This document shows, piece by piece, positions 11,555 to 32,368 of a DNA stretch of 64,000 nucleotides. The notes below the pieces were generated by a model, which did no database searches, had not been told where the DNA came from, and saw only the letters and a program-made list of their open reading frames with translations. This DNA comes from Candidatus Epulonipiscium viviparus (GTDB lineage: Bacteria; Bacillota; Clostridia; Lachnospirales; Cellulosilyticaceae): the NCBI RefSeq assembly GCF_030708075.1, contig NZ_CP117982.1:2497302-2561301 (forward strand), given 5' to 3'. Position numbers and translations under genes: made by a program. Position 1 is the first letter of the stretch. The number at the start of each line of letters is the position of its first letter.

Positions 11555-11557
11555 GGG

Positions 11558-12028: not shown

Positions 12029-12040
12029 AACGACTCCTTT

Positions 12041-13111
12041 CTATAACATGGAACGGAACGGAAGGTCTGGCTCATGAGAAAACGCATCTTGAAAACCTCT
12101 GTCATACATATATTGCAGTTTATCTTTGTCTTGTGGCCACATAAACATTCCGCCAACTTCTAATATAAATGGCTTAAAAGCATATTGCAGTCTGTGGCGT
12201 CTCATTTCCCACAAAGTTAAGATTTCTGCAGGGTCGGCCTTAAAATTGGTCCAGATGTCGTGGTGGATAGGTATAACCACTTGGGTATTTAAGCACTCCG
12301 CCATTCTAAGGATGTCGATTGCAGACAATTTGTCGGTCATTCCTCTAGGGTTTTCGCCAAATGAGCCTAGGGCAACATCGATTTTATAGTCATTCCCATG
12401 TTTTGCAAAGTAGTTAGAGTAGTGTGAATCTCCAGAGTGATACACGTTTCCTCCAGGTGTGTTAAATAAATAGTTTACTGCCAAATCATCCATATCTTGT
12501 GGCATGTTATTTGTGAGAGCTCCCACCGCGTGCCCGTGAGCAGTAACTAATTCTGTTCTGTCAAAAGAATCTAATGCAACGATTTCTATATCTTTGACCT
12601 GAATTTTGTCTCCAGGACGAACGGTAACGCATCTATCTGCAGGTACGCCCCACTTGAGCCAAAGGTCAACGCAAGATTTTGGCCCGATAAATTTAACATC
12701 TGCAGAACAATTTTGAATCACTGCCGCGGCAACATTTTCGTCGATGTGATCGCCATGGTCATGCGTTGCCAACACTGCGTCTAAATTTTTTATTGCAAAA
12801 GGATCAATAACACAAGGGACATTTCTTAAATTAGGTTGTAATTTTTCGCAACCAATCATTCGTCTATGCTGATGCCCAGGCGCCATTAGGCCATCTCCGT
12901 GAGAGCGCTTGCCGGTCTTAACCCACAAATCGACTAATACGTTGGCATTGCTTTCGGACTTGAGCCATAATCCAGTACATCCAAGCCACCACATCGCGAC
13001 GCTACCTTTTGGAACAGTTGTTTCGTCGATCTCTTCGTTTAACCAAGTGCCCCATTCTGGAAACGTGCTCAAAATCCAACTTTCTCTGGTAATTTCATTA
13101 ACTTTGCTCAT
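12041..13111 (-). CDS. ulaG: L-ascorbate-6-phosphate lactonase UlaG
   Basis: A 356-residue metallo-beta-lactamase-fold lactonase that opens L-ascorbate 6-phosphate to 3-keto-L-gulonate 6-phosphate. It shows the family N-terminus ([22 protein letters not shown]), the metal motif THDHGDH and the downstream [10 protein letters not shown]. Length is within two residues of remembered E. coli UlaG. The start is ATG 13111, preceded on the minus strand by CGGAGGG. It is the first gene of the minus-strand operon. Confidence 0.96.
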
Positions 13112-13160
13112 ATTTTCCCTCCGCATAATTAGATGTTAAAGCTCAAAAAACTAACTAGTT

Positions 13161-14464: not shown

Positions 14465-15145
14465 ATGAAATATTTTTTAGATAGCGCAAAAATTGAAGAA
14501 ATTAAAGAAGCATATAACACGTTTGGAATCGATGGGGTAACCACAAACCCAAGACATATTCAACTTAGTGGCAAACCGTTTTTAACAGTAGTCAAAGAAT
14601 TGGCCGACTGGGTTAAAGAAGAAGGTTTAGAGGGTATCGATAGATTTCCAATCTCGGTAGAAATTAATCCGCATCTGGATAATGCGGCAGATATGATTAC
14701 GGAAGCTAAAAAAATTGCAGCTATATCCGAGAACTTTGCTATTAAAATTCCATCAACTGCGGCAGGAATAGAAGCGTCAAGAAAGTTGGAAAAAGAAGGT
14801 ATCAGAACAAATGTAACTCTCGTATTTTCTACTGCTCAAGCGATTTTGCCAGCAAAGAATAATGCGTTATTTATGTCTCCGTTTATAGGTTGGAAAGAGG
14901 CAAACGGTGAAGATTGTAAAAAGTATATTGAAGATATTGTAACTATATATAATAAATTTGGATATAAAACTGAGATAATCTGTGCCGCCATTCGAAATCC
15001 AAAGCAAATCGTAGAATGTGCCGTTGCGGGGGCGCATATCGTTACTACCGCGTTAGACGTTTACAAAGATGCGATGAAACATCCGTTTACAAACCAGGGA
15101 CTAGACACTTTTATTGCTGCATGGGATAACACAATTACAGAATAA
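14465..15145 (+). CDS. sftT: 6-deoxy-6-sulfofructose transaldolase candidate (SftT/SqvA)
   Basis: A 226-residue transaldolase of the small FSA/TalC type. Lys94 in AIKIPST is the expected Schiff-base lysine; Asp6 and the TTNPR motif at 26-30 are the other active-site elements. Ordinary fructose-6-phosphate aldolases fit the fold too, but linkage to a sulfoquinovosidase and a sulfolactaldehyde-reductase-like gene points to SftT/SqvA. That enzyme cleaves sulfofructose and moves dihydroxyacetone to glyceraldehyde 3-phosphate, giving fructose 6-phosphate and sulfolactaldehyde. TTGGAGGC at 14453-14460 supports ATG 14465. First gene of the operon. Confidence 0.8.
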   Translation: MKYFLDSAKIEEIKEAYNTFGIDGVTTNPRHIQLSGKPFLTVVKELADWVKEEGLEGIDRFPISVEINPHLDNAADMITEAKKIAAISENFAIKIPSTAAGIEASRKLEKEGIRTNVTLVFSTAQAILPAKNNALFMSPFIGWKEANGEDCKKYIEDIVTIYNKFGYKTEIICAAIRNPKQIVECAVAGAHIVTTALDVYKDAMKHPFTNQGLDTFIAAWDNTITE

Positions 15146-15169: not shown

Positions 15170-16027
15170 ATGAAAATAGGATTTATTGGACTTGGAATAA
15201 TGGGAGAGTCCATGAGCGAAAATATCGTTAAAAAACACGATGACGAAGTTTTTGTATTCGACTATGTTGCGGAGAAAGTGGCATTGCTAAAATCTAAAGG
15301 GGCGATCCCATGTGATAACGCAGTAGAGTTGGCAAAAAAATCTGATCTAATCATTTCTATGGTTCCAAAATCAGAGCATTCAAAGCAATTATATACCGAA
15401 ATTTTACCCGCGTTAGATGCCACCAAAATTTGTATTGACATGAGCACGATAGATCCATCTGTTTCTATAGAAATATCAAAATTTGTTAAGGCAACTGGGG
15501 CAGAATTTATAGATGCGCCAGTGGTTAAGTCTAAGGCTGCTGCAATTTCGGCAACTCTCGGAATATATGTCGGAGGAGACATCGCAACGTACGAAAAGGT
15601 GAAGCCTATCTTGCTATATATGGGCAACAACACAATACACCTTGGCGACAACGGAAAAGGCCTGGTAATGAAGGTTGCTCACAATGCGCTCGTTTCTCAA
15701 ATTCAAAATGGTGTGAACGAAACTATAACAATAGCTCTGAAAAATAATATTTCTGTAGAAGATTATGCAACCGCAGTTTCTTATGGCGGTGGTCAAAATT
15801 TTTATCTCGATTCGAAAGCAAAGCCTATTGCAGAAAATAACTTTACCACTGCCTTCTCTGTAGAAAATATGGCAAAAGATATTGATATATGCGTAAATTT
15901 GGCGGCAGAGTGCGCGGTAAATGTGCCAGGTGTTGAAGTGGCGAAGGCAGTTTACGATAAGTCGCTAGAGCTAGGCTACGGCAAAGAAGATTTTTCTGCG
16001 ACAATAAAAACTGTACGAGGTGAGTAG
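15170..16027 (+). CDS. 3-sulfolactaldehyde reductase candidate (beta-hydroxyacid dehydrogenase family)
   Basis: A 285-residue NAD(P)-dependent dehydrogenase. It has the Rossmann motif GFIGLGIMG at 4-12 and the catalytic lysine Lys168 in GLVMKVAHN. The substrate motif, usually DAPVSGG in 3-hydroxyisobutyrate dehydrogenase, reads DAPVVKSK at 115-122. E. coli YihU, which reduces sulfolactaldehyde to DHPS, also departs from SGG here, which suits a sulfonate rather than a carboxylate. It would supply DHPS to the glycyl-radical enzyme downstream and reoxidise NADH. A GarR or tartronate semialdehyde reductase role is the alternative. Confidence 0.78.
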   Translation: MKIGFIGLGIMGESMSENIVKKHDDEVFVFDYVAEKVALLKSKGAIPCDNAVELAKKSDLIISMVPKSEHSKQLYTEILPALDATKICIDMSTIDPSVSIEISKFVKATGAEFIDAPVVKSKAAAISATLGIYVGGDIATYEKVKPILLYMGNNTIHLGDNGKGLVMKVAHNALVSQIQNGVNETITIALKNNISVEDYATAVSYGGGQNFYLDSKAKPIAENNFTTAFSVENMAKDIDICVNLAAECAVNVPGVEVAKAVYDKSLELGYGKEDFSATIKTVRGE

Positions 16028-16690
16028 ATGATTGCTAAGCTGAATTCACTAAATGATGTAGAAGTCAAAGATGTAACGAGCAGTGATTTTAAAACGTACG
16101 GAAAAATATTGGATGGCTACGATTTTACTGATCTGCTAGATTTTATGGCTACAACTGAGGTGCCTGCAGAGGGCAATATTTACGTTGCTTCTGTAGCAGA
16201 AATGGAAAAATTTCCTATATATAAAACACTGAAAAATACGTTCTATGGTGGAATGGACATTCAAATCGGATATTGTAATGGCAAAAACAGTACCTACAAC
16301 GGCTTCGAATATCATAAATGTAGCGAAATCAATATTGCAGTAACAGATTTTATGCTAGTACTAGGTCATACATGGGATATGGTAGATAACACGTTTAAAG
16401 TGGAAGATGCGGAGGTGTTCTTTGTTCCAAAAGGCACCGCGTTAGAAATGTATCAAACTACTTTGCACCTGTCGCCTTGCAAGGTTTGCGACTCTGGGTT
16501 TAAGGATGTCGTAATATTATTAAAAGGAACGAACGATACAACGTTCAAAAAAACCGAAGCAGTCTCGCAAGAAGACGAAATTTTGTTATTCCAAAACAAG
16601 TGGGTCATTGCGCATAAAGATAGAGAGCCACTTGTAAAGGCGGGAGCGCACATCGGATTGCTGGGCGAAAATAAAGAGCTGAAATATTAA
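16028..16690 (+). CDS. DUF4867 protein, candidate sulfoquinovose isomerase (SftI/SqvD type)
   Basis: A 220-residue cupin-like protein that I recognise as DUF4867 by segments such as YGGMDIQIGYCNG, YHKCSEINIA, LGHTWDMVDN and FFVPKGTALEMYQTTLHLSPC. The His and Glu in the EYHKCSEIN segment are plausible metal ligands. As I recall, DUF4867 proteins sit in transaldolase-type sulfoquinovose clusters of Firmicutes as the isomerase making 6-deoxy-6-sulfofructose. The start codon abuts the stop of the preceding gene, so the two are translationally coupled. Confidence 0.72.
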   Translation: MIAKLNSLNDVEVKDVTSSDFKTYGKILDGYDFTDLLDFMATTEVPAEGNIYVASVAEMEKFPIYKTLKNTFYGGMDIQIGYCNGKNSTYNGFEYHKCSEINIAVTDFMLVLGHTWDMVDNTFKVEDAEVFFVPKGTALEMYQTTLHLSPCKVCDSGFKDVVILLKGTNDTTFKKTEAVSQEDEILLFQNKWVIAHKDREPLVKAGAHIGLLGENKELKY

Positions 16691-16708: not shown

Positions 16709-18697
16709 ATGGTAGTAAATAGCGAGTTTAGCTTGTCGCATAATGGGCATATAATTTTAGAGCATACGGATGACTCTCCAATGCTATTTGCAGGAGTGGG
16801 AGAAGAAACAGTTGAAATGTATAGGGGTAATTTTGATATTGCAGACTATTTGATCGAGCGCAATAGGCTGAAGTTGACGCAGATTGTGGAAGAAAATGGC
16901 AATTATAGGCTAAATTTTGATGATCAGATAGAGGTATATGTGACTGTTACCTACGACAAAGTAACGTTAGATTTTACGCAAATCAATATGGCATTGAACA
17001 GGTTTTTTATTAGGCTCAATTCTACTGCAGATGAAAAGATTTTTGGATTGGGCGAGCAGATGTCTTATCTCAATTTAAAAGGAAGAAACTTTCCGATATT
17101 TACTTCGGAGCCCGGAGTGGGTAGGGACAAATCGACCTATATAACTTGGCGTTCCGATGTTGAGAACAAAGCTGGGGGAGATTATTACAACACGAACTTT
17201 CCGCAGCCGACGTATGTGTCGTCAAATATGTATTTTCTGCACGTAGACTCTACTGCCTATGCTGATTTTAATTTTAAGAATGATGCGTTTACGGAAGTGG
17301 CAGTTTGGGAGGTGCCAAAGCAGATTGTGATTCAGGGTGGATCGAGCTATTTGGATTTGGTAGAAAAACTTACTGCGTATCTAGGTAGGCAGCCAGAGCT
17401 TCCAGACTGGATTTATAATGGCGTGATTTTGGGTCTACAGGGTGGAACAGATCGTACCTTTGGATTACTCGATAAAACGATCGAGCATGGAATTAAGGTT
17501 GCTGCTGTATGGGCTCAAGATTGGTGCGGTAAGCGAGTGACTTCGTTTGGAAAGCGGTTGCAATGGAATTGGCAATATCATAAAGAGATGTATCCTGAGT
17601 TGCCTAAAAAGATTGCGGAGCTGCATAAGCAAAATATTAAGTTTCTGGGCTATGTTAATCCGTATCTAGTGAATGACGGACCGCTTTATAAAGAAGGAAA
17701 AGATAAAGGATACTTTGCAACCAAGCATGATGGGTCGGAGTATTTGGTAGATTTTGGAGAATTCGATTGCGGTGTAGTGGATCTCACAAACCCTGCAGCA
17801 TACGCGTGGTTTAAAGATGATGTTATCAAGAAGTATTCGATAGATATTGGAATGGATGGCTGGATGGCCGATTTTGGAGAATATTTGCCAACCGATGATA
17901 TCAAATTATATAGCGGAAAGAGCGCTATGATCGAGCATAACCATTGGCCAGTGTTGTGGGCAAAGTGTAATTATGACGCTGTGGCAGAAGCCAAAAAAAC
18001 AGGAGAGATCGTATATTTTATGAGAGCGGGAGGAGCAGGATCGCAAAAGTATTGCCCATTGCTATGGGCAGGAGATCAGTCGGTGGACTTTTCGATACAC
18101 GATGGGTTGGCATCGACGGTTGTGGCCGCACTCTCAGCTGGAATGACAGGTTGCGGAATATCTCACAGCGATATAGGCGGGTATACTTCGCTATTTGAGA
18201 ACACCAGAGACAAAGAACTGTTTTTGCGATGGGCAGAAATGGCGGCATTTACTCCGGTGATGCGAACTCATGAGGGCAACAGACCGGAGACCAATTTTCA
18301 GTACTATGATGATGAAGATTGTATGGCAAGATTCGCTAGGCTTGTGGATGTACATGTAATGTTAAAAGACTACATCAAAGCTGCTGTTTCAGAGAATGCG
18401 CAAAAGGGAATTCCTGTGCAACGACCACTGTTTATGCATTATCCAGATGATGAGGTGGCATATGAACAGCAATTCTCCTATTTGCTAGGAGAAGATCTGC
18501 TGGTGGCGCCGGTATATGAAAGCAATAGAAGTGACTGGAAGGTGTATCTGCCAAAAGGTCAATGGGTTCATCTATGGACCGAGAAAGAATATACGCAAGG
18601 GTATCACACAGTTGCTGCGGAGCTGGGCTATCCACCAGTATTTTATAAAAAGGAGTCGGCGGCAATATTTAAGGCAATCAAATATGAGGTGAAATAA
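16709..18697 (+). CDS. Sulfoquinovosidase, GH31 (YihQ-type)
   Basis: A 662-residue GH31 alpha-glycosidase, close in length to E. coli YihQ (678). It would hydrolyse sulfoquinovosyl glycerol to sulfoquinovose and glycerol in the cytosol; there is no signal peptide. Asp388 in GWMADFGEY is the nucleophile and Asp456 in LWAGDQ the acid/base. The residues that read the sulfonate in YihQ are all present at equivalent spacing: Gln270, Arg283 and Trp286 (RLQW) and Tyr492 (GGYTSLFE). This separates it from ordinary alpha-glucosidases. It lies 18 bases after the DUF4867 gene. Confidence 0.93.
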   Translation: MVVNSEFSLSHNGHIILEHTDDSPMLFAGVGEETVEMYRGNFDIADYLIERNRLKLTQIVEENGNYRLNFDDQIEVYVTVTYDKVTLDFTQINMALNRFFIRLNSTADEKIFGLGEQMSYLNLKGRNFPIFTSEPGVGRDKSTYITWRSDVENKAGGDYYNTNFPQPTYVSSNMYFLHVDSTAYADFNFKNDAFTEVAVWEVPKQIVIQGGSSYLDLVEKLTAYLGRQPELPDWIYNGVILGLQGGTDRTFGLLDKTIEHGIKVAAVWAQDWCGKRVTSFGKRLQWNWQYHKEMYPELPKKIAELHKQNIKFLGYVNPYLVNDGPLYKEGKDKGYFATKHDGSEYLVDFGEFDCGVVDLTNPAAYAWFKDDVIKKYSIDIGMDGWMADFGEYLPTDDIKLYSGKSAMIEHNHWPVLWAKCNYDAVAEAKKTGEIVYFMRAGGAGSQKYCPLLWAGDQSVDFSIHDGLASTVVAALSAGMTGCGISHSDIGGYTSLFENTRDKELFLRWAEMAAFTPVMRTHEGNRPETNFQYYDDEDCMARFARLVDVHVMLKDYIKAAVSENAQKGIPVQRPLFMHYPDDEVAYEQQFSYLLGEDLLVAPVYESNRSDWKVYLPKGQWVHLWTEKEYTQGYHTVAAELGYPPVFYKKESAAIFKAIKYEVK

Positions 18698-19429
18698 ATG
18701 AGTGAAGTTGTAACAACAGGTTTATTTTTTGTGGTTATTCTTCTATCTCATATCATTCATGGAATTACGGGCTTTGCGGGGACTCTCCTTGCAATGCCCT
18801 TTGCCATTGAATTGGTAGGAATAGATGTGGCAAGACCAGTTTTAAATGTATTGGCAATATTTTCGGGATTTTATGTATTGGTAAATAATTACAAATACGT
18901 AAATTACAAAGAGCTACGAAAAATTGTGTTGATCATGCTGGTGGGAATATTTTCGGGAATATACATAAAATTTCTATTTGTTGGAAACGAAAGAGTTCTA
19001 ATGATATTTTTAGGAATATTTATAATTTACTTATCAATTAAGGGGTTGTTTATCAAGAAAAAAGAGTATAAAGAAACGAGCGCAATAAAATCGAATGCGT
19101 TGCTGGTGTTTGCAGGTATTGTGCACGGGATATTTGTTGCAGGAGGACCTATATTAATAGGCTACTTAAGTGAGAAAATTAAAGACAAGACAGTTTTTAG
19201 AGCAACAATTTCGACGGTGTGGATATTCCTAAATACTGTAATACTTGCAGATGATATCAGGATGGGCCTATGGGATGGAGAGCTGCTAAAAATTTTAGCG
19301 ATAGGAACGCCCATATTGTTTGGAGGAATGTTTATAGGTACAAAGTTGTATCACAAGATGAATCAGGAAACATTTATGAAAATAACATATATTCTGCTAT
19401 TTATTGCAGGAGTGATAACAATTTTTTAG
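18698..19429 (+). CDS. TSUP (TauE/SafE) family exporter
   Basis: A 243-residue integral membrane protein with about eight hydrophobic segments in two homologous halves, each marked by a HGI motif: HGITGFAGTLLAMPF near residue 23 and HGIFVAGGPILIGYL near 143. TSUP proteins move sulfite, sulfoacetate and other sulfonates. Its ATG directly follows the stop codon of the sulfoquinovosidase gene. In this operon it would most likely export the sulfonated end product (3-hydroxypropanesulfonate, DHPS or sulfite). Confidence 0.85.
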   Translation: MSEVVTTGLFFVVILLSHIIHGITGFAGTLLAMPFAIELVGIDVARPVLNVLAIFSGFYVLVNNYKYVNYKELRKIVLIMLVGIFSGIYIKFLFVGNERVLMIFLGIFIIYLSIKGLFIKKKEYKETSAIKSNALLVFAGIVHGIFVAGGPILIGYLSEKIKDKTVFRATISTVWIFLNTVILADDIRMGLWDGELLKILAIGTPILFGGMFIGTKLYHKMNQETFMKITYILLFIAGVITIF

Positions 19430-19444: not shown

Positions 19445-20377
19445 ATGCAAGGCATAGTTTTTAATATTCAACATTTTACAATCCACGATGGGCCAGGCAT
19501 CAGAACAGAACTATTTTTGAAAGGATGCCCCTTGCGATGCGAATGGTGTAGCAATCCGGAGGGGCTGTTGCCAAAGTTGGAGGTGGGAGTATACAAAACT
19601 AAGTGCATTGCTAAGTGCGAAGATTGCGCAAAGGCTTGCCCTCAAGGAAACATACTGACTTTTAATCGCGGAAAAATTCAGTCTATAGACAGAGATAAAT
19701 GTACTGGCTGTTTGGAATGTGCCAAAGCATGCCCGACAGAAGCGATTAGGCAATGGGGCAAGATTATAAATATAGAAGAATGCATGAAAGAAATTTTAAA
19801 AGATAAGGGCTATTATCAGCGCTCTGGTGGCGGAGTTACAATTTCGGGAGGGGAGCCACTACTGCAAAGCGAATTTGTGGCATCGGTATTTAGAGAATGC
19901 CAAAATGAGGGCATCCATACGTGTGTGGAAACAAGCATGTATGTGACATGGGAAAATGTGGCAGCGGTATTGCCGTATGCAGATATGGTTATTGCAGATA
20001 TAAAGCACATGAAGGCAGATGTTCACAAAAAATTTACGGGGGTTAGTAATAAGCTGATCTTGGAGAATCTCAAAAAATTGAGTCAAACAGGCAAGGAAAT
20101 TATTTTGCGGATACCTGTTATTCCAAACGTAAATGAAGATACGGACAATGTGGAAGCGACGGCAGATTTTATACTAAATGAAATGAGTAATAACATTAGA
20201 ACGCTACAGTTGTTAAGTTTTATGCATCTGGGAGAAGAAAAATATGAGTCACTGGGAATGCCATATAAAAATATCGATGTGAATCGAACGGCTTTTCAGA
20301 AGGTAGTTGCCGAAATAGCAGAGTATATGAATTCTCGAGGGATACATTGCGTGGTGGGGACTAAGGAGAAAGAATAA
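19445..20377 (+). CDS. Glycyl-radical enzyme activating enzyme (radical SAM)
   Basis: A 310-residue radical-SAM activase that installs the glycyl radical on its partner. The SAM cluster motif CPLRCEWC gives Cys28, Cys32 and Cys35. Two extra ferredoxin-like clusters follow: KCEDCAKACP and KCTGCLECAKACP, the insert typical of activases for choline lyase, glycerol dehydratase and sulfonate lyases. The SGGEPLLQ motif is present. It is one gene upstream of its likely substrate, matching an HpfH or HpsH role. Confidence 0.92.
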   Translation: MQGIVFNIQHFTIHDGPGIRTELFLKGCPLRCEWCSNPEGLLPKLEVGVYKTKCIAKCEDCAKACPQGNILTFNRGKIQSIDRDKCTGCLECAKACPTEAIRQWGKIINIEECMKEILKDKGYYQRSGGGVTISGGEPLLQSEFVASVFRECQNEGIHTCVETSMYVTWENVAAVLPYADMVIADIKHMKADVHKKFTGVSNKLILENLKKLSQTGKEIILRIPVIPNVNEDTDNVEATADFILNEMSNNIRTLQLLSFMHLGEEKYESLGMPYKNIDVNRTAFQKVVAEIAEYMNSRGIHCVVGTKEKE

Positions 20378-20404
20378 CAAAATCAAATTTTAGAGGTGAA
20401 TATA

Positions 20405-22879
20405 ATGAGTGCAGTTGGAACACAACCTTTTGATCAAACCTATAGTTTAGGGTATCAAGTCAACCATGAAGATTGGTCACCATTTCCGAGAGTTAATCAT
20501 CTTAGGCAAAAGTTTTTGGATCGACCATATGATGTGGATGTTGAAAGATTACGATTAGTAACGGAAGCGTATCAGAATAATGAAGATAAACCTAGAAAAC
20601 TTCAATGTGCGTATGCGTTCGAAAATATTTTGCTGAACACGCAGTTATATATTTATGACGAAGATCTAATTTTGGGCGAAATTGCAGCGCCCGCAAAGGC
20701 GTCTCCGATCTATCCAGAATTTTCGGTAAAATGGATTATAGACGAAATATTACATTCACCATTTGAAGAAAGATCAAACGATCAATTTTATATCAGAAAT
20801 GATTCCGATAGAGAAGAAATAGTGGCCCTTTGCAGGTACTGGGAAGGCAAAACTGTAGACGATGCGGTTACCGCAAGGCTCGAGGAATCGCAAACGGTGG
20901 GCTCGCAAGTTGGGGACAAGGTGTTTCAAACCAACGTATATCAATATGCGGGCATTGGCCACTTGGCAGCGGATTATGACGTTTTGATGAAAGAGGGCTA
21001 TAACGGGTTAATCAACAAAGCGACGGCAGCGCGTAAAAAATTATCGAAAAAAGATCCTGAGTATGCAGATAAGCGAGATTTTTATGATGCGATGATAATA
21101 ATGTTGGAGGCCGCAAAGAAATATATCGCGAGATACGCAAAGCTAGCAGAGGAAAGTGCTATTGCAGAAAAGGATGAAGGTCGCAAGAGAGAGTTGGAAG
21201 CGATGGCGGCAAATTGCTATGCTATTGCGGGAGAAGCACCAAAAACATTTTGGCAGGCAGTGCAACTATTCAATTTTGCAACGACGCTGATACAAATAGA
21301 AAGCAATGGGCATTCGATATCATATGGACGAATGGATCAATGGCTGCACCCAATTTATGAACAGGATATGCGCAGCGGAAATCTAACGAAAGAGTTTGCA
21401 TTAGAAATTTTGGAAGTGCAGTTTGTAAAGATGAATAACCCAACAAAACTTAAGGATAAAGGAACTGTATTGGTGCGAAATGGCCGAGGTTTTGGTGGAG
21501 AAAGTCTAACGATTGGCGGCATTGATAAAAACGGAAACGATGTAACCAACGATTTGACAATGTTAATATTGGAGGGCTCCGCGCATACACGAATGATGAA
21601 TCCTTGGGTTTGTGTGCGTATGCATGAGAACACACCGTATGAGTTGAAAGTGAAAGCTGTGGAATGTATTAGGGCAGGATACGGACATCCAAAACTGTTT
21701 AATGATGCGCCTACGATTAAAGCGATGATGAGAAAAGGGATGACTCTAGAAGAAGCAAGAGAGTATGTAGTTGTAGGCTGCGTTGAGCCGAGTTTACCAG
21801 GGCAGGAGTTTGGTTGGCACGATGCGGCATATGTGAATACAGCAAAAATGATGGAAATGGTAATAAATGGTGGAAAATGCTTAGATGGTGGAGTGTTCAA
21901 TAAGCAAATTGGGCCAAATACAGGAACTCTGGAGACATACGAAACGTTTGAACAGGTTTTAGAAAGCGTAGAAAAGCAATTCGATTATTGGTGCGATCAA
22001 ATGTGTAGCAGCCTAAATATTATCGACGAAGCGCATAGAGTTTGCAAGCCAACGCCATATATTTCGGCTTTCTTTAGCAATTGTATAGAAACAGGAAAAG
22101 ATCTAAGTGAGGGCGGTGCCAAATACAACGGAACAGGGCCGCAAGCAAGTGGAATCGCGACTTGTGCAGATAGCCTTGCAACGATAAAGCAACTAGTTTT
22201 TGATGAAAAGAAATATACAGGTGCCGAGTTACTACAAGCTGTTAAGGATAACTGGGAGGGGCATGAAAAGTTGTACGCTATAGTGAATGGATCCAAAGTG
22301 CATCATTATGGCAACGATGATGAGTATGCAGATGAATTGTTTAAGTTTATGTTCGAAACTTATTGCAACAATATCAATGGCAGAAAAAATCCACGCGGAG
22401 GAAATTATAGTCCTGGTGTATATTCTGTAAACGCAAATGTTGGAATGGGGATGTTTACTAACGCATCGCTGGATGGCCGATTTAAGGGAGAAGCAATCTC
22501 GGATAATATGGGGCCGGTGCACACCGATGGCGGCTCTCACGACATATGCGGACCAACAGCAATAGCAAATTCGGTGGCAAAAGTAGATCATAGCCTAGCG
22601 ACAAATGGGACTCTACTAAATCTGAGATTTCCGCAAGAAGCTGTTGCAGGGACAGAGGGCAGAGATAATCTGGTAAGCTTTATAGACGAATACCTGTCGA
22701 GGCATCCGATGCATGTGCAATTTAATATAATGAATGCGCAAACAATGCGTGCGGCACAGAAAAATCCAGAGAAGTATAAGGATATGCTAGTGCGAGTGGC
22801 CGGGTATAGCGCATATTTTGTGGAGCTCGGAAAGCCACTACAAAAGGATTTGATACAGAGAACAGAACTACATTTTTAG
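20405..22879 (+). CDS. Glycyl-radical enzyme, candidate DHPS dehydratase (HpfG) or sulfolyase (HpsG)
   Basis: An 824-residue pyruvate-formate-lyase-like enzyme. The thiyl radical cysteine is Cys459 in VVVGCVEPS, with Glu461 two residues later, as in CutC-like eliminases and diol dehydratases and unlike the Cys-Cys pair of pyruvate formate-lyase. The radical-bearing glycine is Gly800 in RVAGYSAYF. With the neighbouring aldehyde/alcohol dehydrogenase and sulfoglycolysis genes it best fits DHPS dehydratase, making 3-sulfopropionaldehyde. The sulfolyase, which makes hydroxyacetone and sulfite, cannot be excluded by reading alone; no dissimilatory sulfite reductase is in the window. ATG 20405 follows AGAGGTG; an upstream GTG (20396) is part of that ribosome site. 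Confidence 0.85.
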   Translation: MSAVGTQPFDQTYSLGYQVNHEDWSPFPRVNHLRQKFLDRPYDVDVERLRLVTEAYQNNEDKPRKLQCAYAFENILLNTQLYIYDEDLILGEIAAPAKASPIYPEFSVKWIIDEILHSPFEERSNDQFYIRNDSDREEIVALCRYWEGKTVDDAVTARLEESQTVGSQVGDKVFQTNVYQYAGIGHLAADYDVLMKEGYNGLINKATAARKKLSKKDPEYADKRDFYDAMIIMLEAAKKYIARYAKLAEESAIAEKDEGRKRELEAMAANCYAIAGEAPKTFWQAVQLFNFATTLIQIESNGHSISYGRMDQWLHPIYEQDMRSGNLTKEFALEILEVQFVKMNNPTKLKDKGTVLVRNGRGFGGESLTIGGIDKNGNDVTNDLTMLILEGSAHTRMMNPWVCVRMHENTPYELKVKAVECIRAGYGHPKLFNDAPTIKAMMRKGMTLEEAREYVVVGCVEPSLPGQEFGWHDAAYVNTAKMMEMVINGGKCLDGGVFNKQIGPNTGTLETYETFEQVLESVEKQFDYWCDQMCSSLNIIDEAHRVCKPTPYISAFFSNCIETGKDLSEGGAKYNGTGPQASGIATCADSLATIKQLVFDEKKYTGAELLQAVKDNWEGHEKLYAIVNGSKVHHYGNDDEYADELFKFMFETYCNNINGRKNPRGGNYSPGVYSVNANVGMGMFTNASLDGRFKGEAISDNMGPVHTDGGSHDICGPTAIANSVAKVDHSLATNGTLLNLRFPQEAVAGTEGRDNLVSFIDEYLSRHPMHVQFNIMNAQTMRAAQKNPEKYKDMLVRVAGYSAYFVELGKPLQKDLIQRTELHF

Positions 22880-22897: not shown

Positions 22898-24034
22898 ATG
22901 AAAAATTATAGTTTTAAGATACCGCAAAATATAGAATTCGGATTAGGGAGCCTTCATAAGCTAGCAGAAATTTTAGATAAATCGGAACATGTTTTGTTGA
23001 TATCTGATAAAGGACTTGCGGCCATAGGGGTAGTGAAAATGGTTGAAGATATATTGGGGCATAGCGGAATTGGGTATACGAAATTTTTAGATGTAAAGCC
23101 AAACCCAACTATAGATATAGTGACCGCAGCGACGGAAGCTTTTAAAAACTGTGGGGCCACCAGTATTATAGCGTTGGGAGGAGGCAGCCCCATCGATGTG
23201 GCAAAAGCGACTGGAGTGTTGGCGACCTATGCTGGAAAAATTACCGATTATGAAGGCAATCATAAGGTACCAGGGCCGATTGTTCCAATAATAGCAATAC
23301 CAACTACGGCCGGGACAGGGAGCGAAGTTACTGCTTCTGCGGTTATTACGGATGAGGCAAGAAACTATAAGATGACAGTGTTTAGTTACGAAATGTTGCC
23401 CAAGTATGCAATATTAGATCCGAAGCTAATTATGAGTGCGCCGTCACATATAGCAGCAGCCTGTGGAGTAGACGCTCTGATTCATGCAATGGAGGCATAT
23501 CTTTCTGTAAATGCGACACCGTTTTCTGATGCTATGGCGGAAAAAGCGATGGAGATGATAGGAAGGAGCATCCGTAGATTTGTTGCCAACCGAGAAGATG
23601 TAGAAGCGGCTTGCGATATGATGGCGGGTTCGAACTTTGCGGGAATAGCGTTTGCATGGGCTAGACTAGGATGTATACATGCGATGAGCCATCCGGTAAG
23701 CGCATATTTTAATGTGCCCCATGGTGTGGCAAACGCAATATTAATGCCAACGGTGATGAGCTATAACGCACTGACCGATAACGGGAGATACGAAAAAATT
23801 TATAATTATATATGCAAAGGAAAGGCAAACTACACATCGGCGGTGGATCTGGTATATGAAGTAGAATATCTAAACGAAGATCTGGGTATTCCGCAATCGT
23901 TGAGTGAAGTGGGTGTAACGGAAGATAAGATTGTAGCGATGGCAGAAGACGCGGCCAAAAGTGCCAACACACTAGCTAATCCAAGACAAACTACCGCATC
24001 AGATATTGCGGAGCTGTATCGAAAAGCGTTATAG
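22898..24034 (+). CDS. Iron-containing alcohol dehydrogenase, candidate sulfopropionaldehyde reductase (HpfD)
   Basis: A 378-residue type III alcohol dehydrogenase. It shows the NAD-binding GGGSPIDVAK and the metal site: Asp and His in GVDALIHAMEAY, then His in GCIHAMSHP and His in NVPHGVAN. It follows the glycyl-radical enzyme by 18 bases. In fermenting bacteria HpfD reduces 3-sulfopropionaldehyde to 3-hydroxypropanesulfonate with NADH. If the radical enzyme were a sulfolyase, this protein could instead reduce hydroxyacetone to 1,2-propanediol. Confidence 0.85.
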   Translation: MKNYSFKIPQNIEFGLGSLHKLAEILDKSEHVLLISDKGLAAIGVVKMVEDILGHSGIGYTKFLDVKPNPTIDIVTAATEAFKNCGATSIIALGGGSPIDVAKATGVLATYAGKITDYEGNHKVPGPIVPIIAIPTTAGTGSEVTASAVITDEARNYKMTVFSYEMLPKYAILDPKLIMSAPSHIAAACGVDALIHAMEAYLSVNATPFSDAMAEKAMEMIGRSIRRFVANREDVEAACDMMAGSNFAGIAFAWARLGCIHAMSHPVSAYFNVPHGVANAILMPTVMSYNALTDNGRYEKIYNYICKGKANYTSAVDLVYEVEYLNEDLGIPQSLSEVGVTEDKIVAMAEDAAKSANTLANPRQTTASDIAELYRKAL

Positions 24035-24104: not shown

Positions 24105-25436
24105 ATGTTTGAAATGGCTTATATACCAATTGGAGTTCCAACTTTTCATTTAGAGAGTGCGCAAATTGAATTTAATAAATCAATAGAAATGATAAAATCT
24201 TTGACAGATGCTTGCATTTTTCCTGATGAAATGCTATTGTCAATGGACAGCCTAGAAAAATTTTTGGCAAAAATAAGTCCGAAATTGGTAGTGGTACAAA
24301 ATATTACGTTTGCCAATGCCGCGTATATAACAGAGGTACTGAAGAAATTTGACTGCCCTGTATTGCTATGGACATTGCGAGAGCCTGTAATAGATGGAGG
24401 CAGATTGAGACTGAACTCTCTGACTGGAGCATATTCAGCAGGGAACGCATTGCTAAATTTCAGAGAAGGCAATTTTGAGTATATATTTGGCTCACCAGAA
24501 GAATCAGAGGTGCAAAATAAAATTGCAGCAACGATAAAGGCTGCGAAAGTAAAATATGATTTGACAAAAACTAAAATTGCATCTATAGGGCATACGCCAC
24601 AAGGGTTTGGATTTGGACGCGCGTTGGATGTGGAAGTTGCTAAATATTTCGGATCAACATTGGAGTGTATTGAGGCGAGAGAGTTGATTGATAAGGCAAA
24701 AACTTTTGCAGATGCGGAGTGCGCAGAAAATTTGGTAGAGTTTGAAAAATCGTGTTGCAATCATGAGGCAATTGATATAAAAAATATGACGGACTTTGCT
24801 AAATTGTTGAAGGCGTATAAAGAATATGTAATAGAGAATAATATTCAAGTAATCGCGTCTAGATGCTGGCCAGACTTTTTTGTATCATATGGGACACCAG
24901 TCTGTGCGGTATTGTCGATGTTAAACGACTTGGGAGTTGCTGCTAGTTGTGAATCGGATACATTTGGTGCGCTATCTATGTATATTGCAGCAAAATTGAG
25001 CGGAAAAGTGACATTTTTTGGAGATCCTGTTTCGTTGGATGAAGAGGAAAATACAATAACCTATTGGCATTGCGGAATGGCGCCTTGCTCTCTGGCAGAT
25101 GCGGAAAAAGCTAATATAGGAATTCATCCGAATAGAAAAATAGGCCCAGTTATGGATTTCGGTTGCAAAGCAAATGACGTCGCGACAGTATTTAGAATTG
25201 GCAAGGACGGCGATGGCAAGTTTAGATTTTTTGTGATGTCTGGAAGTATTTTGGAGAAGCCAAAGCAGTTTCAAGGGACATCGGTTGTGGTAAAGCCTGA
25301 GGCAAATAGCAAAGATGTGGTAACGAGAAGTGTAAAAGACGGATGGGAGCCTCACTTTGTTGTGGCCTATGGGGATATCGCAACAGAGCTCGAAATCTTA
25401 GCAAGAATGTTAGGGTTTGAAGTTATGAAATATTAA
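24105..25436 (+). CDS. L-fucose-isomerase-like protein, substrate unknown
   Basis: A 443-residue protein related to the L-fucose/L-arabinose isomerase superfamily. It has two alpha/beta domains at the N-terminus, WTLREPVIDGGRLRLNS near residue 90, the ASRCWPDF segment, and a C-terminal beta domain with HCGMAPCSLA and GDGKFRFF. The glutamate in ASCESD near residue 290 is a plausible metal ligand. ATG 24105 is supported by GAGAGG upstream; the frame is open further upstream but without a ribosome site. It could isomerise sulfoquinovose or an epimeric or reduced sulfosugar. With DUF4867 present the cluster has two isomerase candidates. Confidence 0.7.
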   Translation: MFEMAYIPIGVPTFHLESAQIEFNKSIEMIKSLTDACIFPDEMLLSMDSLEKFLAKISPKLVVVQNITFANAAYITEVLKKFDCPVLLWTLREPVIDGGRLRLNSLTGAYSAGNALLNFREGNFEYIFGSPEESEVQNKIAATIKAAKVKYDLTKTKIASIGHTPQGFGFGRALDVEVAKYFGSTLECIEARELIDKAKTFADAECAENLVEFEKSCCNHEAIDIKNMTDFAKLLKAYKEYVIENNIQVIASRCWPDFFVSYGTPVCAVLSMLNDLGVAASCESDTFGALSMYIAAKLSGKVTFFGDPVSLDEEENTITYWHCGMAPCSLADAEKANIGIHPNRKIGPVMDFGCKANDVATVFRIGKDGDGKFRFFVMSGSILEKPKQFQGTSVVVKPEANSKDVVTRSVKDGWEPHFVVAYGDIATELEILARMLGFEVMKY

Positions 25437-25454: not shown

Positions 25455-26669
25455 ATGAAGAACATAGGTGGCAATTTAGAAAGGCTGAAAATAAAAAATC
25501 GACAACTGATATTGAGGTTGCTAAATAATCATGGAAAGATGTCTCGGAAGCTGATTGCGCAGACAATTTCTCTAACATCAGCTTCTATTACCCAGCTATG
25601 TTCTGAAATGATAGCAGAAGGGCTGATAGTAGAGGTTGGAGAAGATGAAACAAGCACAAAAGCTGGTCGTAAGGAAATTTTTATAAATATCAACTATGAA
25701 AATCGATACGCATTATGCATCAACATCGAAAAGTTTTCGACCGATATAAGCTTAGCGAATCTGCAGGGCAATGTCATCTTGACCAAGAGGATAAAGACAG
25801 CAACAAGAGTGGATGCCGAGATTTTTTTAAAGCAAGTAGCGGATACTTGCTTGGCATTTTTAGAACAAGCTGCAAAAAAAATTATTGGGGTAGGAGTTAG
25901 TTTGCGGGGGCTGGTGGATTCTGCAGAAGGAGTAAGCAAGAAGGCCTATGAAATCTGGAGCAAACCGGTGGCTGTAAAAGACATACTAGAAAGCTATCTG
26001 CCATTTCCAATAATAGTACAAAACAATATGCGGGCCTTTGCACAAGCAGAAATAATATATGGAATTGGCAAGGAATATAAAAATTTGTTATTTTTGAAGT
26101 GGTTTCCGGGAGTGGGATCGAGTATAGTGATAGACCAGGCGGTATATGAAGGAGAAGACGGGCGAGCTGCAGAGTTGGGGCATTACATTGTAGATGGCGA
26201 TGGAAGACGATGTAGATGCGGAAAGTGCGGTTGTCTTGAAACGGTAACATCGTTTGATGCGATTGTAAGCAATATAAGTTTGATTTATTCTAAGGAGATG
26301 ACGCCGCTGTTATATGAAGCAACGAGAGGCGAAAGAATGAATATTGCTTCAGTTGTGAAAAATTATTTAAAAACCGATTTATCAAAAGTGGATGCGTATG
26401 TAAAAGAAACGATAGATAAGGCGATAGCGAAGATAGCGGTGGTTGCGTTTAATGCGATGACTTTTATGGCACCGCAAAAATTGATTGTATATGGAGAATT
26501 TTTTGCTAACGAATATATATATTGTAAATTTGTAGAGAAATATAAAACATATGAAATAGATTATAAAGAAAATTTAATCATCAAAACTAATCTGAGCGAC
26601 AAAATTTTTTATATTGGAGCGTTGGCGATAGTCGTTGAACAATTCTTTTTCAATGTAGGAGGCTTATAA
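25455..26669 (+). CDS. ROK-family transcriptional regulator
   Basis: A 404-residue NagC/XylR-type regulator. Residues 12-75 hold the winged helix (GKMSRKLIAQTISLTSASITQLCSEMIAEGLI). The ROK sensor domain follows with GVGVSLRGLVD, the sugar-site ELGHYIVDGDGRRCRCGKCGCLE and its zinc-binding CxCGxxGCLE. It is transcribed with the sulfoquinovose genes 18 bases after the isomerase-like gene, so it is likely an autoregulated sensor of a sulfosugar or glycoside. Confidence 0.88.
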   Translation: MKNIGGNLERLKIKNRQLILRLLNNHGKMSRKLIAQTISLTSASITQLCSEMIAEGLIVEVGEDETSTKAGRKEIFININYENRYALCINIEKFSTDISLANLQGNVILTKRIKTATRVDAEIFLKQVADTCLAFLEQAAKKIIGVGVSLRGLVDSAEGVSKKAYEIWSKPVAVKDILESYLPFPIIVQNNMRAFAQAEIIYGIGKEYKNLLFLKWFPGVGSSIVIDQAVYEGEDGRAAELGHYIVDGDGRRCRCGKCGCLETVTSFDAIVSNISLIYSKEMTPLLYEATRGERMNIASVVKNYLKTDLSKVDAYVKETIDKAIAKIAVVAFNAMTFMAPQKLIVYGEFFANEYIYCKFVEKYKTYEIDYKENLIIKTNLSDKIFYIGALAIVVEQFFFNVGGL

Positions 26670-26882: not shown

Positions 26883-27896
26883 ATGATTAAAAAGTTATTA
26901 ACATTGTTTGTTGCGACGACCATGGTGATTTCGATTTCTGGTTGCGGAAGTGACAACACAGAATCGAGCTCTGGTACTGTCAGAATCATTTGTCCATATG
27001 GAGTAGGTGGAACTGCGGATCTGATTGCAAGAAAATATGCCTTAGTTGCAGGAGAGCTGTTTCCAGAAAAAAACTTCATCGTGGAAAATATGACTGGCGG
27101 CGACGGGTTTGCAGCGGCTACATACTATACAGAACTTGACCCAGATACTACAGATCTATTGATCTATGGATATGGAGTAATCTATAGACACGATTTGGGA
27201 AAAGAGTATGGCACAGAGATTGTGGATTTTGATAGAGACGAAATTCAGCCAATCGGAATTATTGATGATAGAACTTGGATCTTATATTCCACTCCTGGAA
27301 CAACTGTTGAGGATGTATTAGCCAAAGCAAAAAATGGCGGAATAAAAATGTCTGGCGGAAATCCGTTGTCCGACCCGCACTTGGCGTTGGGCTCACTGAT
27401 TGCAGAAGAACAAGGAAAGACCATGGTAATTCCTTATGACGGGGGCGCTTCACAGAAAAAGGCTTTGACTGATGGTGAGGTTGATGTATTTGTGGGAACC
27501 ACGCAGGCTGGTAAAGAAGAAGTGGAAGCCGGAACAATGGAAGCGATTTTATCATTTAGTATAGAAGAGTTTGAGGGATTTGTAGGCCCAGATGGAAAGG
27601 CTGTTGAGATTCCAACTGTTGCAGGAGAAAATAAGCATGAGGCGCTAAGAGATGATGTGGATTATTCGCAATACATTTTGCCATCGGGTGGATTTATTGC
27701 AACTCGTGCGGGAGCGCCTGCAGAATGGGTTGCAGAAATGGAAGAAATTACAAAAGCGGTATGGAATTCGCCGGAATATTACGAATGGATAGAAGAGATT
27801 ATGCTAAACAAAAAAGAGTTATATGGAGCGGATGCTGTTGCCTATGTAGAAGAGGCGTCGCTAATCGCTAAGGGAGCGTTTGAAACACTGAGATAG
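26883..27896 (+). CDS. tctC: TctC-type substrate-binding lipoprotein
   Basis: A 337-residue extracytoplasmic solute receptor of the tripartite tricarboxylate transporter family. It begins with a lipoprotein signal peptide ending ISISGC, so Cys21 is the lipidated residue. The mature protein starts with VRIICPYGVGGTADLIAR, the typical Bug-fold ligand loop. The family binds carboxylates and some sulfonates. Position beside the sulfoquinovose operon suggests a sulfonated sugar, its glycerol derivative or DHPS as ligand. Confidence 0.88.
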   Translation: MIKKLLTLFVATTMVISISGCGSDNTESSSGTVRIICPYGVGGTADLIARKYALVAGELFPEKNFIVENMTGGDGFAAATYYTELDPDTTDLLIYGYGVIYRHDLGKEYGTEIVDFDRDEIQPIGIIDDRTWILYSTPGTTVEDVLAKAKNGGIKMSGGNPLSDPHLALGSLIAEEQGKTMVIPYDGGASQKKALTDGEVDVFVGTTQAGKEEVEAGTMEAILSFSIEEFEGFVGPDGKAVEIPTVAGENKHEALRDDVDYSQYILPSGGFIATRAGAPAEWVAEMEEITKAVWNSPEYYEWIEEIMLNKKELYGADAVAYVEEASLIAKGAFETLR

Positions 27897-27930
27897 ATGA
27901 GATATAGAAAAGGCCACGAGGAGGAATAGA

Positions 27931-28383
27931 ATGAAAATAAAAACCAACTTATGGACGGGAATAATTATGGGCGTGATTAGCGCGATACTTTTGATAGTAT
28001 TGCCTAGTCAGGTGCCGCTGCCTATGTTTGATTCGGGAGCGCCAAGCCCAAGAATTTTACCGTCCTTTGCGATCATTGGAATGCTGATAGCATCTATAAT
28101 TTTGATAGTTCAGAGCGTTGTGTTTAAACAAGATAAAATTTACGAATTTGATATTAAGAAAGAGTTGCCGGCTATAATTATGATAGGGTTGCTGTGCCTG
28201 TTTGCGATATTGATTATAGCAATAGGGTTTGTGGCTGCGGCATGTATTGTGTTCCCGATTTTGCTGTTTTATGTGGGTGAACGCAAGCCGGCAATATATA
28301 TCTTTACGCTGGTATCTGCAGTTGCAATATTTTATTTGTTTAGATTAGTTTTGAACATTTCGTTGCCGGGATTTGGAGGTTAG
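27931..28383 (+). CDS. tctB: TctB-type small membrane subunit
   Basis: A 150-residue protein with four hydrophobic segments. It has the SQVPLPMFDSGAPSPRILPSF region between the first two, typical of TctB, the small membrane subunit that pairs with TctA. It lies between tctC and tctA with short spacing. Confidence 0.85.
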   Translation: MKIKTNLWTGIIMGVISAILLIVLPSQVPLPMFDSGAPSPRILPSFAIIGMLIASIILIVQSVVFKQDKIYEFDIKKELPAIIMIGLLCLFAILIIAIGFVAAACIVFPILLFYVGERKPAIYIFTLVSAVAIFYLFRLVLNISLPGFGG

Positions 28384-28389
28384 ACGTCT

Positions 28390-29937
28390 ATGGGTGATAT
28401 GGATATGATTTTAGCAGCCTTAGGGCAAGTACTTAGTTTTACAAATATCGCTGTTATCTTGGGCGGATTACTGTTGGGGATAATAGTAGGGTGCATTCCA
28501 GGGCTGAGTGTTACGTTGGGAATAATTTTACTATTGCCTCTAACATATTCTTTTTCTTCTCCTGATACTGCAATAATTTCGCTGCTTGCTGTATATGTTG
28601 GAGGAATGTACGGGGGGTCGATCAGTGCGATATTGCTAAACTCGCCGGGCACAAACTCTGCAATAGCCACAACGTTCGATGGATACCCTCTGGCACAACA
28701 AGGAAAAGTGAAGAAAGTGTTGGATGCCTCGTTGTTTGCGTCAGTGTTTGGAGGAATTTTCTCAGCTTTGATATTGTTGTTCTTTTCATCATTGATAACA
28801 AAATTGGTTGGCGGCTTTGCTTCGACAGAATATTTTGCGTTGGCCATTTTGGGAATTTCGTTGCTAGCAGGAGTGAGTGGCGATAACTTAGCCAAAGGAG
28901 TTATATCGGGGTTGCTGGGAATCTTCATTGCGTGTATTGGCGCAGATGCTGTAACCGGAGTTAGGCGATTTACATTTGATACAGAAACGCTAAAGTTTGG
29001 TATCGACATGGTCCCAGCGATGATCGCGTTTATTGCGTTGACCCAGGTAATATTAAAATTACGAGATTATTATGTTTCGGGTGGCAAGATCGATGATATA
29101 ACCAAAATTGATAATAAGGGGTTGACTTTAGTAGAAGCGAAATCGATAGTGCCCGCGTGTTTACGGTCTTCGACTATAGCGTCGATAATTGGAGCCATGC
29201 CTGGCGTAGGTGGCGGAGTGGCCCAGTTTATGTGCTATAACGAGGTAAAGCGTACATCGAAGACGCCGGAAAAATTTGGCAAAGGTGCATTAGAGGGCGT
29301 TGCAGCAGCGGAGGCAAGTAATAATGCGGTTGTAGGTTCTGCCATGATTCCGTTATTAACGCTAGGAATTCCTGGAGATGGAGTAACGGCGTTGTTATTA
29401 GGAGCATTCATTTTGCATGGAATTCAGCCAGGACCTACAATGTTTACAAAGCAAGGCGTTGTGGCGTATAGTATAATACTTGGCACGCTGATAGCCAACA
29501 TTGCGTTGATAGCGGTGGGGTTGGTTTGTACAAGAGCCGTGGCCAAGATTGTACAAGTGAAATATACGTATCTGGCACCAATAATTATTCTGTTTTGTTT
29601 TGCAGGGGCATTTGCCGCAACAGGAAATACAAAGGAGCTGATCATAACCGCAGTTTTGCTAGTAGTTAGCTATATATTTGTAATATTAGACTTTTCGGTT
29701 ATACCGCTAATGTTGGGAATGATATTAGCAGATATAATGGAGATGAATTTTGTAACAAGCATGATGAGCTATGATAACGATATGCTAATATTTTTCAAGA
29801 GACCAATTACGGCCGGAATCTTGGTGTTAACAGTAATATTGCTTGTGTCGTTAATACGTCTAAATAAGCGCATAAATAAGCTAAACGAAGTGCAAATGGA
29901 AGAAATGAGCCACAGAGATTTAGAGGATGTTGGATAA
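28390..29937 (+). CDS. tctA: TctA-type large membrane subunit
   Basis: A 515-residue polytopic membrane protein, the translocating subunit of the tripartite transporter. Hallmarks are LLGIIVGCIPGLSVTLGIILLLPLTY near residue 25, YGGSISAILLNSPGTNSAIAT, and the internal repeat IIGAMPGVGGGVAQF with LTLGIPGDGVTALLLGAF. The ribosome site GGAGG lies in the last codons of tctB, so the genes are coupled. Confidence 0.92.
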   Translation: MGDMDMILAALGQVLSFTNIAVILGGLLLGIIVGCIPGLSVTLGIILLLPLTYSFSSPDTAIISLLAVYVGGMYGGSISAILLNSPGTNSAIATTFDGYPLAQQGKVKKVLDASLFASVFGGIFSALILLFFSSLITKLVGGFASTEYFALAILGISLLAGVSGDNLAKGVISGLLGIFIACIGADAVTGVRRFTFDTETLKFGIDMVPAMIAFIALTQVILKLRDYYVSGGKIDDITKIDNKGLTLVEAKSIVPACLRSSTIASIIGAMPGVGGGVAQFMCYNEVKRTSKTPEKFGKGALEGVAAAEASNNAVVGSAMIPLLTLGIPGDGVTALLLGAFILHGIQPGPTMFTKQGVVAYSIILGTLIANIALIAVGLVCTRAVAKIVQVKYTYLAPIIILFCFAGAFAATGNTKELIITAVLLVVSYIFVILDFSVIPLMLGMILADIMEMNFVTSMMSYDNDMLIFFKRPITAGILVLTVILLVSLIRLNKRINKLNEVQMEEMSHRDLEDVG

Positions 29938-29951
29938 AAAATAATTGTTAG

Positions 29952-29979
29952 GGTCTCCGAAGAAGGGGGCCTTTTTTTT
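29952..29979 (+). terminator. Intrinsic terminator after tctA
   Basis: GGTCTCC (29952-29958) pairs with GGGGGCC (29965-29971) with G-U pairs, followed by eight T. It closes the transport operon. Confidence 0.85.
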
Positions 29980-30017: not shown

Positions 30018-31520
<1,503 letters not shown>

Positions 31521-31582
31521 TCAACCCTTTATTAATATTTATTAAAATAAAACAACAAGATGTATTTATCTTAATAGATATA

Positions 31583-31610
31583 AGTATAATGGAAATTTGA
31601 GGTAAGTCAA
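31583..31610 (-). promoter_or_regulatory. Promoter of glpK
   Basis: Minus-strand TTGACT (31610-31605) and TATACT (31588-31583) are 16 bases apart. The leader of about 60 nt shows no obvious terminator hairpin, unlike the divergent glpP leader. Confidence 0.5.
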
Positions 31611-31668
31611 GCTGAATACGGCGACAATACTGTACAAAATTAAATTGGAAATTTGTTCTAATCGTATA

Positions 31669-31697
31669 TTGACATTGGGGCAAATTTATTATATTCT
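31669..31697 (+). promoter_or_regulatory. Promoter of the glpP operon
   Basis: Consensus TTGACA (31669-31674) and TATTCT (31692-31697) are 17 bases apart. The start point would be near 31704, about 16 bases before the leader terminator. Confidence 0.65.
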
Positions 31698-31719
31698 ATA
31701 GATATATATTGTAGCGGAG

Positions 31720-31773: not shown

Positions 31774-31792
31774 ATATGTTGGAGGACAAAAT

Positions 31793-32353: not shown

Positions 32354-32368
32354 TAGGAGGACGAATAT

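Follow-up and report, generated by a model that had tools for sequence, protein, structure and literature searches.

HpfG, a predicted DHPS dehydratase encoded in a sulfo-TAL gene cluster of Candidatus Epulonipiscium viviparus

The window analysed here is a 64,000-nucleotide stretch (2,497,302-2,561,301) of the single-contig 3.28-Mb genome of Candidatus Epulonipiscium viviparus; the protein treated below is 100% identical to that of the N.t. morphotype B (L004). Epulopiscium lives as a symbiont in the gut of herbivorous surgeonfish (PMC4789555, PMC3416734). At 20405-22879 (+) the window encodes a glycyl-radical enzyme (GRE) that is very probably HpfG, the dehydratase of (2S)-3-sulfopropanediol (DHPS), acting at the penultimate step of an extended sulfo-transaldolase (sulfo-TAL) pathway. 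Profile scores, a tree, the active-site residues and the accompanying HpfH activase agree, and therefore point to a dehydratase and not to a sulfolyase.

The hpfG gene and the family of its product

The reading frame is open from 20396 to 22879 (+). An ATG at 20405, preceded by the ribosome-binding site AGAGGTG, gives a product of 824 aa, which confirms the coordinates of the first-pass annotation. That annotation had described an eliminase-type radical enzyme from two loops, and both were found in the intact frame, the cysteine loop GCVEP at residues 458-462 and the glycine loop RVAGYSAYF at residues 797-805. The codon of the catalytic Cys459 (21779-21781, +) lies in a CVE motif, with Glu461 two codons on; the pair aligns with C433/E435 of glycerol dehydratase and C468/E470 of IslA. 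The codon of the glycyl-radical residue, Gly800 (22802-22804, +), aligns with G763 of glycerol dehydratase 1r8w and G805 of IslA. Both expected Pfam domains were present, PFL-like (6e-204) and Gly_radical (6e-27). When the gene was compared with its Epulopiscium and Klebsiella homologues, synonymous sites were saturated (pS 0.82-0.89) and pN was low (0.10-0.15). Hence, hpfG is under strong purifying selection, i.e., it is maintained.

The protein was scored against the profile models of the related enzymes. It reached 1714.6 bits with the HpfG model NF048009 (cut-off 1000), matching over positions 1-824 of 824. The scores for the HpsG model NF048011 (489.7 bits, cut-off 1000), the CutC model TIGR04394 (510.5 bits, cut-off 1050) and the HypD model (552.2 bits) all fell under the respective cut-offs. 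The protein is 79% identical to the Klebsiella homologue and 77% to that of H. hathewayi; identity to glycerol dehydratase is 40%, and to HpsG 6LON (PDB title 'Crystal structure of HPSG') 31%. The NCBIfam entry NF048011 is an annotation trap, being titled 'dehydratase' though HpsG is described as a sulfolyase. Moreover, Bacillota IslA-type enzymes exceed its cut-off (L084, for example, is 5YMR-like), and the model does not separate HpsG from IslA. Since HpsG and IslA are both sulfite-lyases, this overlap leaves the dehydratase argument unaffected.

A tree of 48 GRE sequences was built under LG+C20 with SH-aLRT support, including HpfG, HpsG, IslA and CutC as the first-pass annotation had proposed. 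The window protein fell inside the HpfG group (SH-aLRT 100). HpsG and IslA, including PDB entries 6LON, 5YMR and 7KQ3, formed a separate group (SH-aLRT 100), and CutC, HypD and glycerol dehydratase each stood apart from the HpfG group. Glycerol dehydratase was represented by 1r8w and one relative (L120), while propanediol dehydratase was compared by sequence and fold score instead of in the tree. As no clustering with glycerol dehydratase or CutC was seen in the tree, the assignment to the DHPS enzymes stands.

An AlphaFold model of the protein had a mean pLDDT of 79.5 and a pTM of 0.85, the glycine-loop end being of low confidence (pLDDT below 50 for residues 798-824). A fold search with this model placed glycerol and 1,2-propanediol dehydratases first, and IslA/HpsG at ranks 40-44. 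The ranking is supportive of a dehydratase, but it follows partly from sequence similarity.

The two genes flanking hpfG encode its predicted partners. HpfH (19445-20377, +), the putative radical-SAM activase of HpfG, scored 535.8 bits against NF048008 (cut-off 500), and 316 bits against the HpsH model, under the cut-off of 430. The gene at 22898-24034 (+) encodes an Fe-dependent alcohol dehydrogenase, predicted to be the 3-sulfopropionaldehyde reductase HpfD, homologues of which lie beside hpfG elsewhere. It is 73% identical to the Fe-dependent alcohol dehydrogenase adjoining hpfG in Hungatella hathewayi DSM 13479 (L017) and 68% identical to that of Klebsiella; HpfD was identified from Hungatella hathewayi (PMC12890257). 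The cluster thus holds both the cognate activase and the reductase, and the downstream alcohol dehydrogenase, as had been suggested, fits the HpfG/HpfD route.

A second GRE (766 aa) is encoded elsewhere in the same genome, in a cluster at C1:307109-317065 (L131 7110-17066). In this protein GCND replaces CxE, and the glycine loop reads VTGYSAFF. Its neighbours are an activase, a Zn-dependent alcohol dehydrogenase, an FGGY kinase, a glycerol-dehydrogenase-like protein, a galactitol-type PTS IIC, one further protein and DeoC. This second enzyme corresponds to no NCBIfam equivalog.

Active-site residues and alternative reactions

All eight diol-dehydratase active-site residues that were checked are kept in HpfG. 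His186, Ser300, His303 and Ser304 align with H164, S278, H281 and S282 of 1r8w, and Cys459, Glu461, Asp473 and Tyr673 with C433, E435, D447 and Y640. HpfG therefore carries the catalytic residue set of the GRE glycerol/1,2-propanediol dehydratases. These columns are invariant in 79 of 79 HpfG homologues, with the exception of column 300, which is S or G. The pocket of IslA is a different matter. Its residues R189, Q193 and R678 hold the sulfonate, as found by structure and mutagenesis (PMC8473560), and HpsG 6LON keeps these three along with W374. In the alignment, R189, Q193, W374 and R678 correspond to Ala182, His186, a gap and Gly671 of HpfG, so that none of the four is kept. The loop VRNGRGFGG contains two arginines, Arg358 and Arg361, that do not vary among the HpfG homologues and are nearly absent from the other enzymes aligned; many other GREs have in this stretch an aromatic residue (W/F/Y) that is aligned as a gap in HpfG. 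It is plausible that Arg358 and Arg361 are sulfonate ligands, through which the enzyme could recognise DHPS over glycerol.

The sulfolyase alternative raised in the first-pass annotation would be an enzyme of the HpsG type, cutting the C-S bond of DHPS to yield hydroxyacetone and sulfite, the latter to be exported by the TSUP protein or reduced by AsrABC. HpsG does have the same substrate, a TSUP gene adjoins, and the genome carries AsrABC. Against this stand the score for the HpsG model, the separate clade with full support, and the pocket itself, where other residues stand at three of the four IslA positions tested and the fourth falls in a gap; the diol-dehydratase leaving-group residues are present. 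In addition, no dsrA match over the cut-off was obtained in the genome, the only weak DsrA match being the AsrC gene. On the profile scores, the tree and the active site, the sulfolyase was rejected as extremely unlikely.

The TSUP gene does not alter this. The protein (18698-19429, +; PF01925, 80.8 bits) matched TSUPs of sulfo-TAL clusters with 201-263 bits, compared with about 100 bits for the HpfE-type TSUPs that adjoin hpfG. In many hpf clusters (e.g., Hungatella, L017, and Enterococcus, L018) hpfG and hpfD have a TSUP gene between them, at the position where HpfE would be expected. The subgroup of the window TSUP was also found in L166, together with sulfo-TAL genes and with no GRE in the stretch read. 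Since this subgroup occurs in a sulfo-TAL cluster that lacks a GRE, the presence of TSUP is no evidence for sulfite, and the proposal that it serves sulfite export was dropped. The window TSUP, a TauE-family exporter of the sulfo-TAL type, probably exports the terminal sulfonate.

The AsrABC anaerobic sulfite reductase is encoded at C1:343275-346038 (L130 5276-8039), far from the HpfG cluster, and its subunits scored 518.5, 422.8 and 536 bits, all over their cut-offs. The cell may be able to reduce sulfite from another source to sulfide in this way; nothing was found linking AsrABC to DHPS.

A glycerol or 1,2-propanediol dehydratase, disposing of the glycerol of SQ-glycerol (SQ, sulfoquinovose) while the Fe-dependent alcohol dehydrogenase makes 1,3-propanediol or propanol, would account for the full diol-dehydratase residue set, for glycerol dehydratase being the nearest solved fold, and for the glycerol kinase and glycerol-3-phosphate-oxidation-like block that comes next (30018-35443). 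However, 1r8w and its relative L120 belong to a different clade at 40% identity, the activase exceeds the HpfH cut-off, and Arg358 and Arg361, plausible sulfonate contacts, are invariant in HpfG only. We consider this alternative very improbable, though slightly less so than the sulfolyase. A further possibility concerns the fate of the product: the pathway of Enterococcus gilvus (PMC11489063) is bifurcated, with HpfXYZ oxidising part of the 3-sulfopropionaldehyde to 3-sulfopropionate, from which Bilophila can form H2S. The HpfYZ ligase is needed for 3-sulfopropionate (PMC11489063), but no HpfXYZ homologue was identified in the cluster, and the ligase family PF08442 (ATP-grasp_2) gave 0 matches in the whole single-contig genome, in a search for which 11 of 14 control genomes were positive. 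With the ligase absent from the genome, the HpfXYZ branch was rejected, its likelihood being as slight as that of the sulfolyase. The DHPS dehydratase HpfG is thus the reading that we retain.

The sulfo-TAL cluster and the predicted pathway

The hpf genes lie among genes for SQ degradation. They include a predicted 6-deoxy-6-sulfofructose (SF) transaldolase (SqvA/SftT; 14465-15145, +), for which the best PDB match was BmSF-TAL 8bc3 (292.8 bits) and the next distinct enzyme 1vpx (167.5 bits). It is followed by a HIBADH-family dehydrogenase (15170-16027, +), a predicted sulfolactaldehyde (SLA) reductase forming DHPS. This protein scored 142.9 bits against NF012005, below the cut-off of 348; it carries the conserved DAPVVKS motif and is 63-79% identical to the same gene product beside the transaldolase in other sulfo-TAL clusters. 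The DUF4867 protein (SqvB/SftX; 16028-16690, +; PF16161, 255.3 bits) is a putative SQ mutarotase or ring-opening enzyme, a role proposed in PMC9594981. The next gene encodes a GH31 sulfoquinovosidase of the YihQ type (16709-18697, +), with 976.5 bits against PRK10426 (cut-off 553), 1083.8 bits to 6pnr and 764 bits to E. coli YihQ; the motifs LQGG, AQDW, GKRLQW and GGYTSL are all present. Downstream of hpfD lies a FucI-like predicted SQ isomerase (SqvD/SftI; 24105-25436, +), which scored 393.2 bits against NF048012, below the cut-off of 700. This cut-off was reached by 0 of 391 Clostridia genomes, and a PDB search with SqvD returned no match. In L163 and L166, too, counterparts of both SqvD and the SLA reductase (57-70% identity) are encoded next to SF transaldolases. 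As both proteins are under their NCBIfam cut-offs, these two predicted assignments rest on context and homologues.

A ROK-family protein (25455-26669, +; NagC/Mlc-like, 167 bits, below the cut-off) is the probable regulator of the operon, and ROK homologues were found near sulfo-TAL genes in L020, L164 and L166 as well. All genes from the transaldolase through the ROK gene read on the + strand, and the gaps that separate them are no longer than about 70 bases, which fits an operon. SF transaldolase, SQ isomerase, sulfoquinovosidase and SLA reductase are thus found in one cluster, as in sulfo-TAL pathways. The gene content, the profile scores, the tree and the residues together support the first-pass suggestion that the GRE acts on DHPS in a pathway for plant or algal sulfolipid.

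Two neighbouring gene groups may be mentioned. A glycerol kinase (831 bits) and a glycerol-3-phosphate-oxidation-like block (30018-35443) lie beside the SQ cluster, and from their position a role as outlet for the glycerol of SQ-glycerol is plausible. On the other side, at 5812-13126 (-), is an ascorbate-type cluster with an L-ascorbate 6-phosphate lactonase (627.6 bits, cut-off 306) and an ascorbate-type PTS IIC.

A tctCBA set of the tripartite tricarboxylate transporter (TTT) family (26883-29937) starts after a gap of 213 bases from the ROK gene. TctC (26883-27896, +), the solute-binding protein and candidate receptor for SQ or SQ-glycerol, scored 25.7 bits with PF03401, just missing the gathering score of 27. 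The small membrane subunit TctB (27931-28383, +) is 47-59% identical to the TctB proteins adjoining sulfo-TAL genes in L051, L060, L163 and L164, where TctC genes adjoin them too, and the large membrane subunit TctA (28390-29937, +) is 67-70% identical to TctA of sulfo-TAL clusters. A terminator-like hairpin of 9 pairs, 5 of them GC, with a T run after it, at 29950-29973 (+), is by consensus match the probable end of the operon. In Oribacterium (L051, L060) the gene order is transaldolase, SLA reductase, DUF4867, SQase, TSUP, TctC, TctB and TctA. A TctA of at least 67% identity occurred in only 3 of 391 Clostridia genomes, the window's own included, each time close to SftI and SQase genes; the next best matches were at 44% or less. 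In all, the linkage of TTT and sulfo-TAL genes was seen in five genomes, with or without HpfG: that of the window, the two Oribacterium genomes and two other Clostridia (L163, L164). The idea that TctCBA imports SQ (or SQ-glycerol), using an ion gradient and not ATP as its energy source, is one in which our confidence is about evenly divided. The recurrent linkage offers a candidate SQ importer open to test. A literature search found no link of the TTT family to SQ uptake or sulfoglycolysis, the one match for sulfoquinovose concerning a taurine-respiring bacterium. TTT transporters and sulfolactate are mentioned together in some papers.

The family membership, active-site residues and gene content of the HpfG cluster come from this analysis; each reaction with its stereochemistry, as well as the radical mechanism and the export, we infer from published enzymes. 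SQ would be freed from SQ-glycerol by the sulfoquinovosidase and converted to 6-deoxy-6-sulfofructose by DUF4867 and SqvD. The transaldolase would then transfer the C1-C3 unit to glyceraldehyde-3-phosphate and release sulfolactaldehyde, to be reduced to (S)-DHPS by the HIBADH-type reductase. In HpfG, with the Gly800 radical installed by HpfH, Cys459 would abstract hydrogen from the carbon of the DHPS CH2OH group and Glu461 would deprotonate the hydroxyl that this carbon bears. The C2 hydroxyl would depart as water, helped by His186/Asp473, leaving 3-sulfopropionaldehyde, which HpfD would reduce to 3-hydroxypropanesulfonate (3-HPS) at the expense of NADH. The TSUP transporter would export the 3-HPS, and the C-S bond would stay uncut throughout. 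The predicted end product is therefore probably 3-HPS, excreted as an intact sulfonate. It may be added that Enterocloster clostridioformis has sulfo-TAL and hpfGHD genes, yet no 3-HPS was seen on SQ (PMC12330013); hence, the presence of hpf genes need not mean 3-HPS production.

If the prediction holds, sulfolipid sulfur would leave this giant symbiont, a highly polyploid inhabitant of algae-eating fish, as 3-HPS and not as sulfite. Such an exit would divert sulfur from H2S formation and would provide a fermenter with an extra NADH sink. Bilophila wadsworthia could not use 3-HPS, unlike 3-sulfopropionate (PMC11489063).

Relatives and known systems

Within the genus, the arrangement of hpf and sulfo-TAL genes varies. 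Epulopiscium AS2M-Bin001 (L006) has a combined hpf and sulfo-TAL cluster, whereas in Nele67-Bin005 (L005) the hpf genes occur without sulfo-TAL genes in the available DNA, the contig beginning at hpfG. In AS2M-Bin001, the stretch between hpfG and hpfD contains degenerate tandem fragments of the hpfG 3' end, which encodes the glycine loop (L006 12445-12998), and a second contig starts with about three copies of the hpfG 3' end (L132 1-330) followed by another hpfD. These may reflect duplication, a strain mixture or an assembly effect. The same metagenome-assembled genome has single in-frame stops, a TAG in the transaldolase (L006 3663-3665) and a TGA in TSUP (L006 8553-8555), which may stem from decay, from an error or from a minority allele in a polyploid cell.

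The pathway and this kind of HpfG are known; the linkage of TTT and sulfo-TAL genes was not found in the literature searched. HpfG in extended sulfo-TAL pathways has already been published (PMC11489063, PMC9594981), and hpfGHD with the transaldolase pathway is reported for Enterocloster (PMC12330013). A single clause of PMC11489063 mentions 'Epulopiscium sp.' as having the SQ to 3-HPS form. According to the passages of PMC12890257 and PMC12330013 that cite Liu et al. 2020 and An et al. 2021, the HpfG/HpfH/HpfD route belongs to Klebsiella oxytoca and Hungatella hathewayi. All three window proteins are 62-79% identical to those of K. spallanzanii (L010) and H. hathewayi (L017), and the window HpfG has the same catalytic residues. 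In contrast to that route, however, the window genes sit inside a sulfo-TAL operon, and their TSUP is of the sulfo-TAL and not the HpfE type.

In gene content, the window resembles Enterococcus gilvus with its extended sulfo-TAL pathway (PMC11489063); the two share SQase, SQ isomerase, SF transaldolase, SLA reductase, HpfGHD and a TauE-family gene. Unlike in that system, no HpfXYZ was found here, so that 3-HPS is the only predicted product, and a TTT transporter adjoins. The glycerol/1,2-propanediol dehydratases (1r8w, 5i2g, 9rco) are nearest to HpfG in fold, and HpfG retains the catalytic residues of 1r8w and would work like a diol dehydratase, but identity is about 40% or less, Arg358 and Arg361 are specific to HpfG, and glycerol dehydratase forms a separate clade. 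With HpsG (6LON) and IslA (5YMR, 7KQ3), HpfG has the GRE fold and the CxE motif in common, and with HpsG the substrate; it differs from both in its clade, in lacking the Arg/Gln/Trp/Arg pocket, and in the bond that it is predicted to cut.
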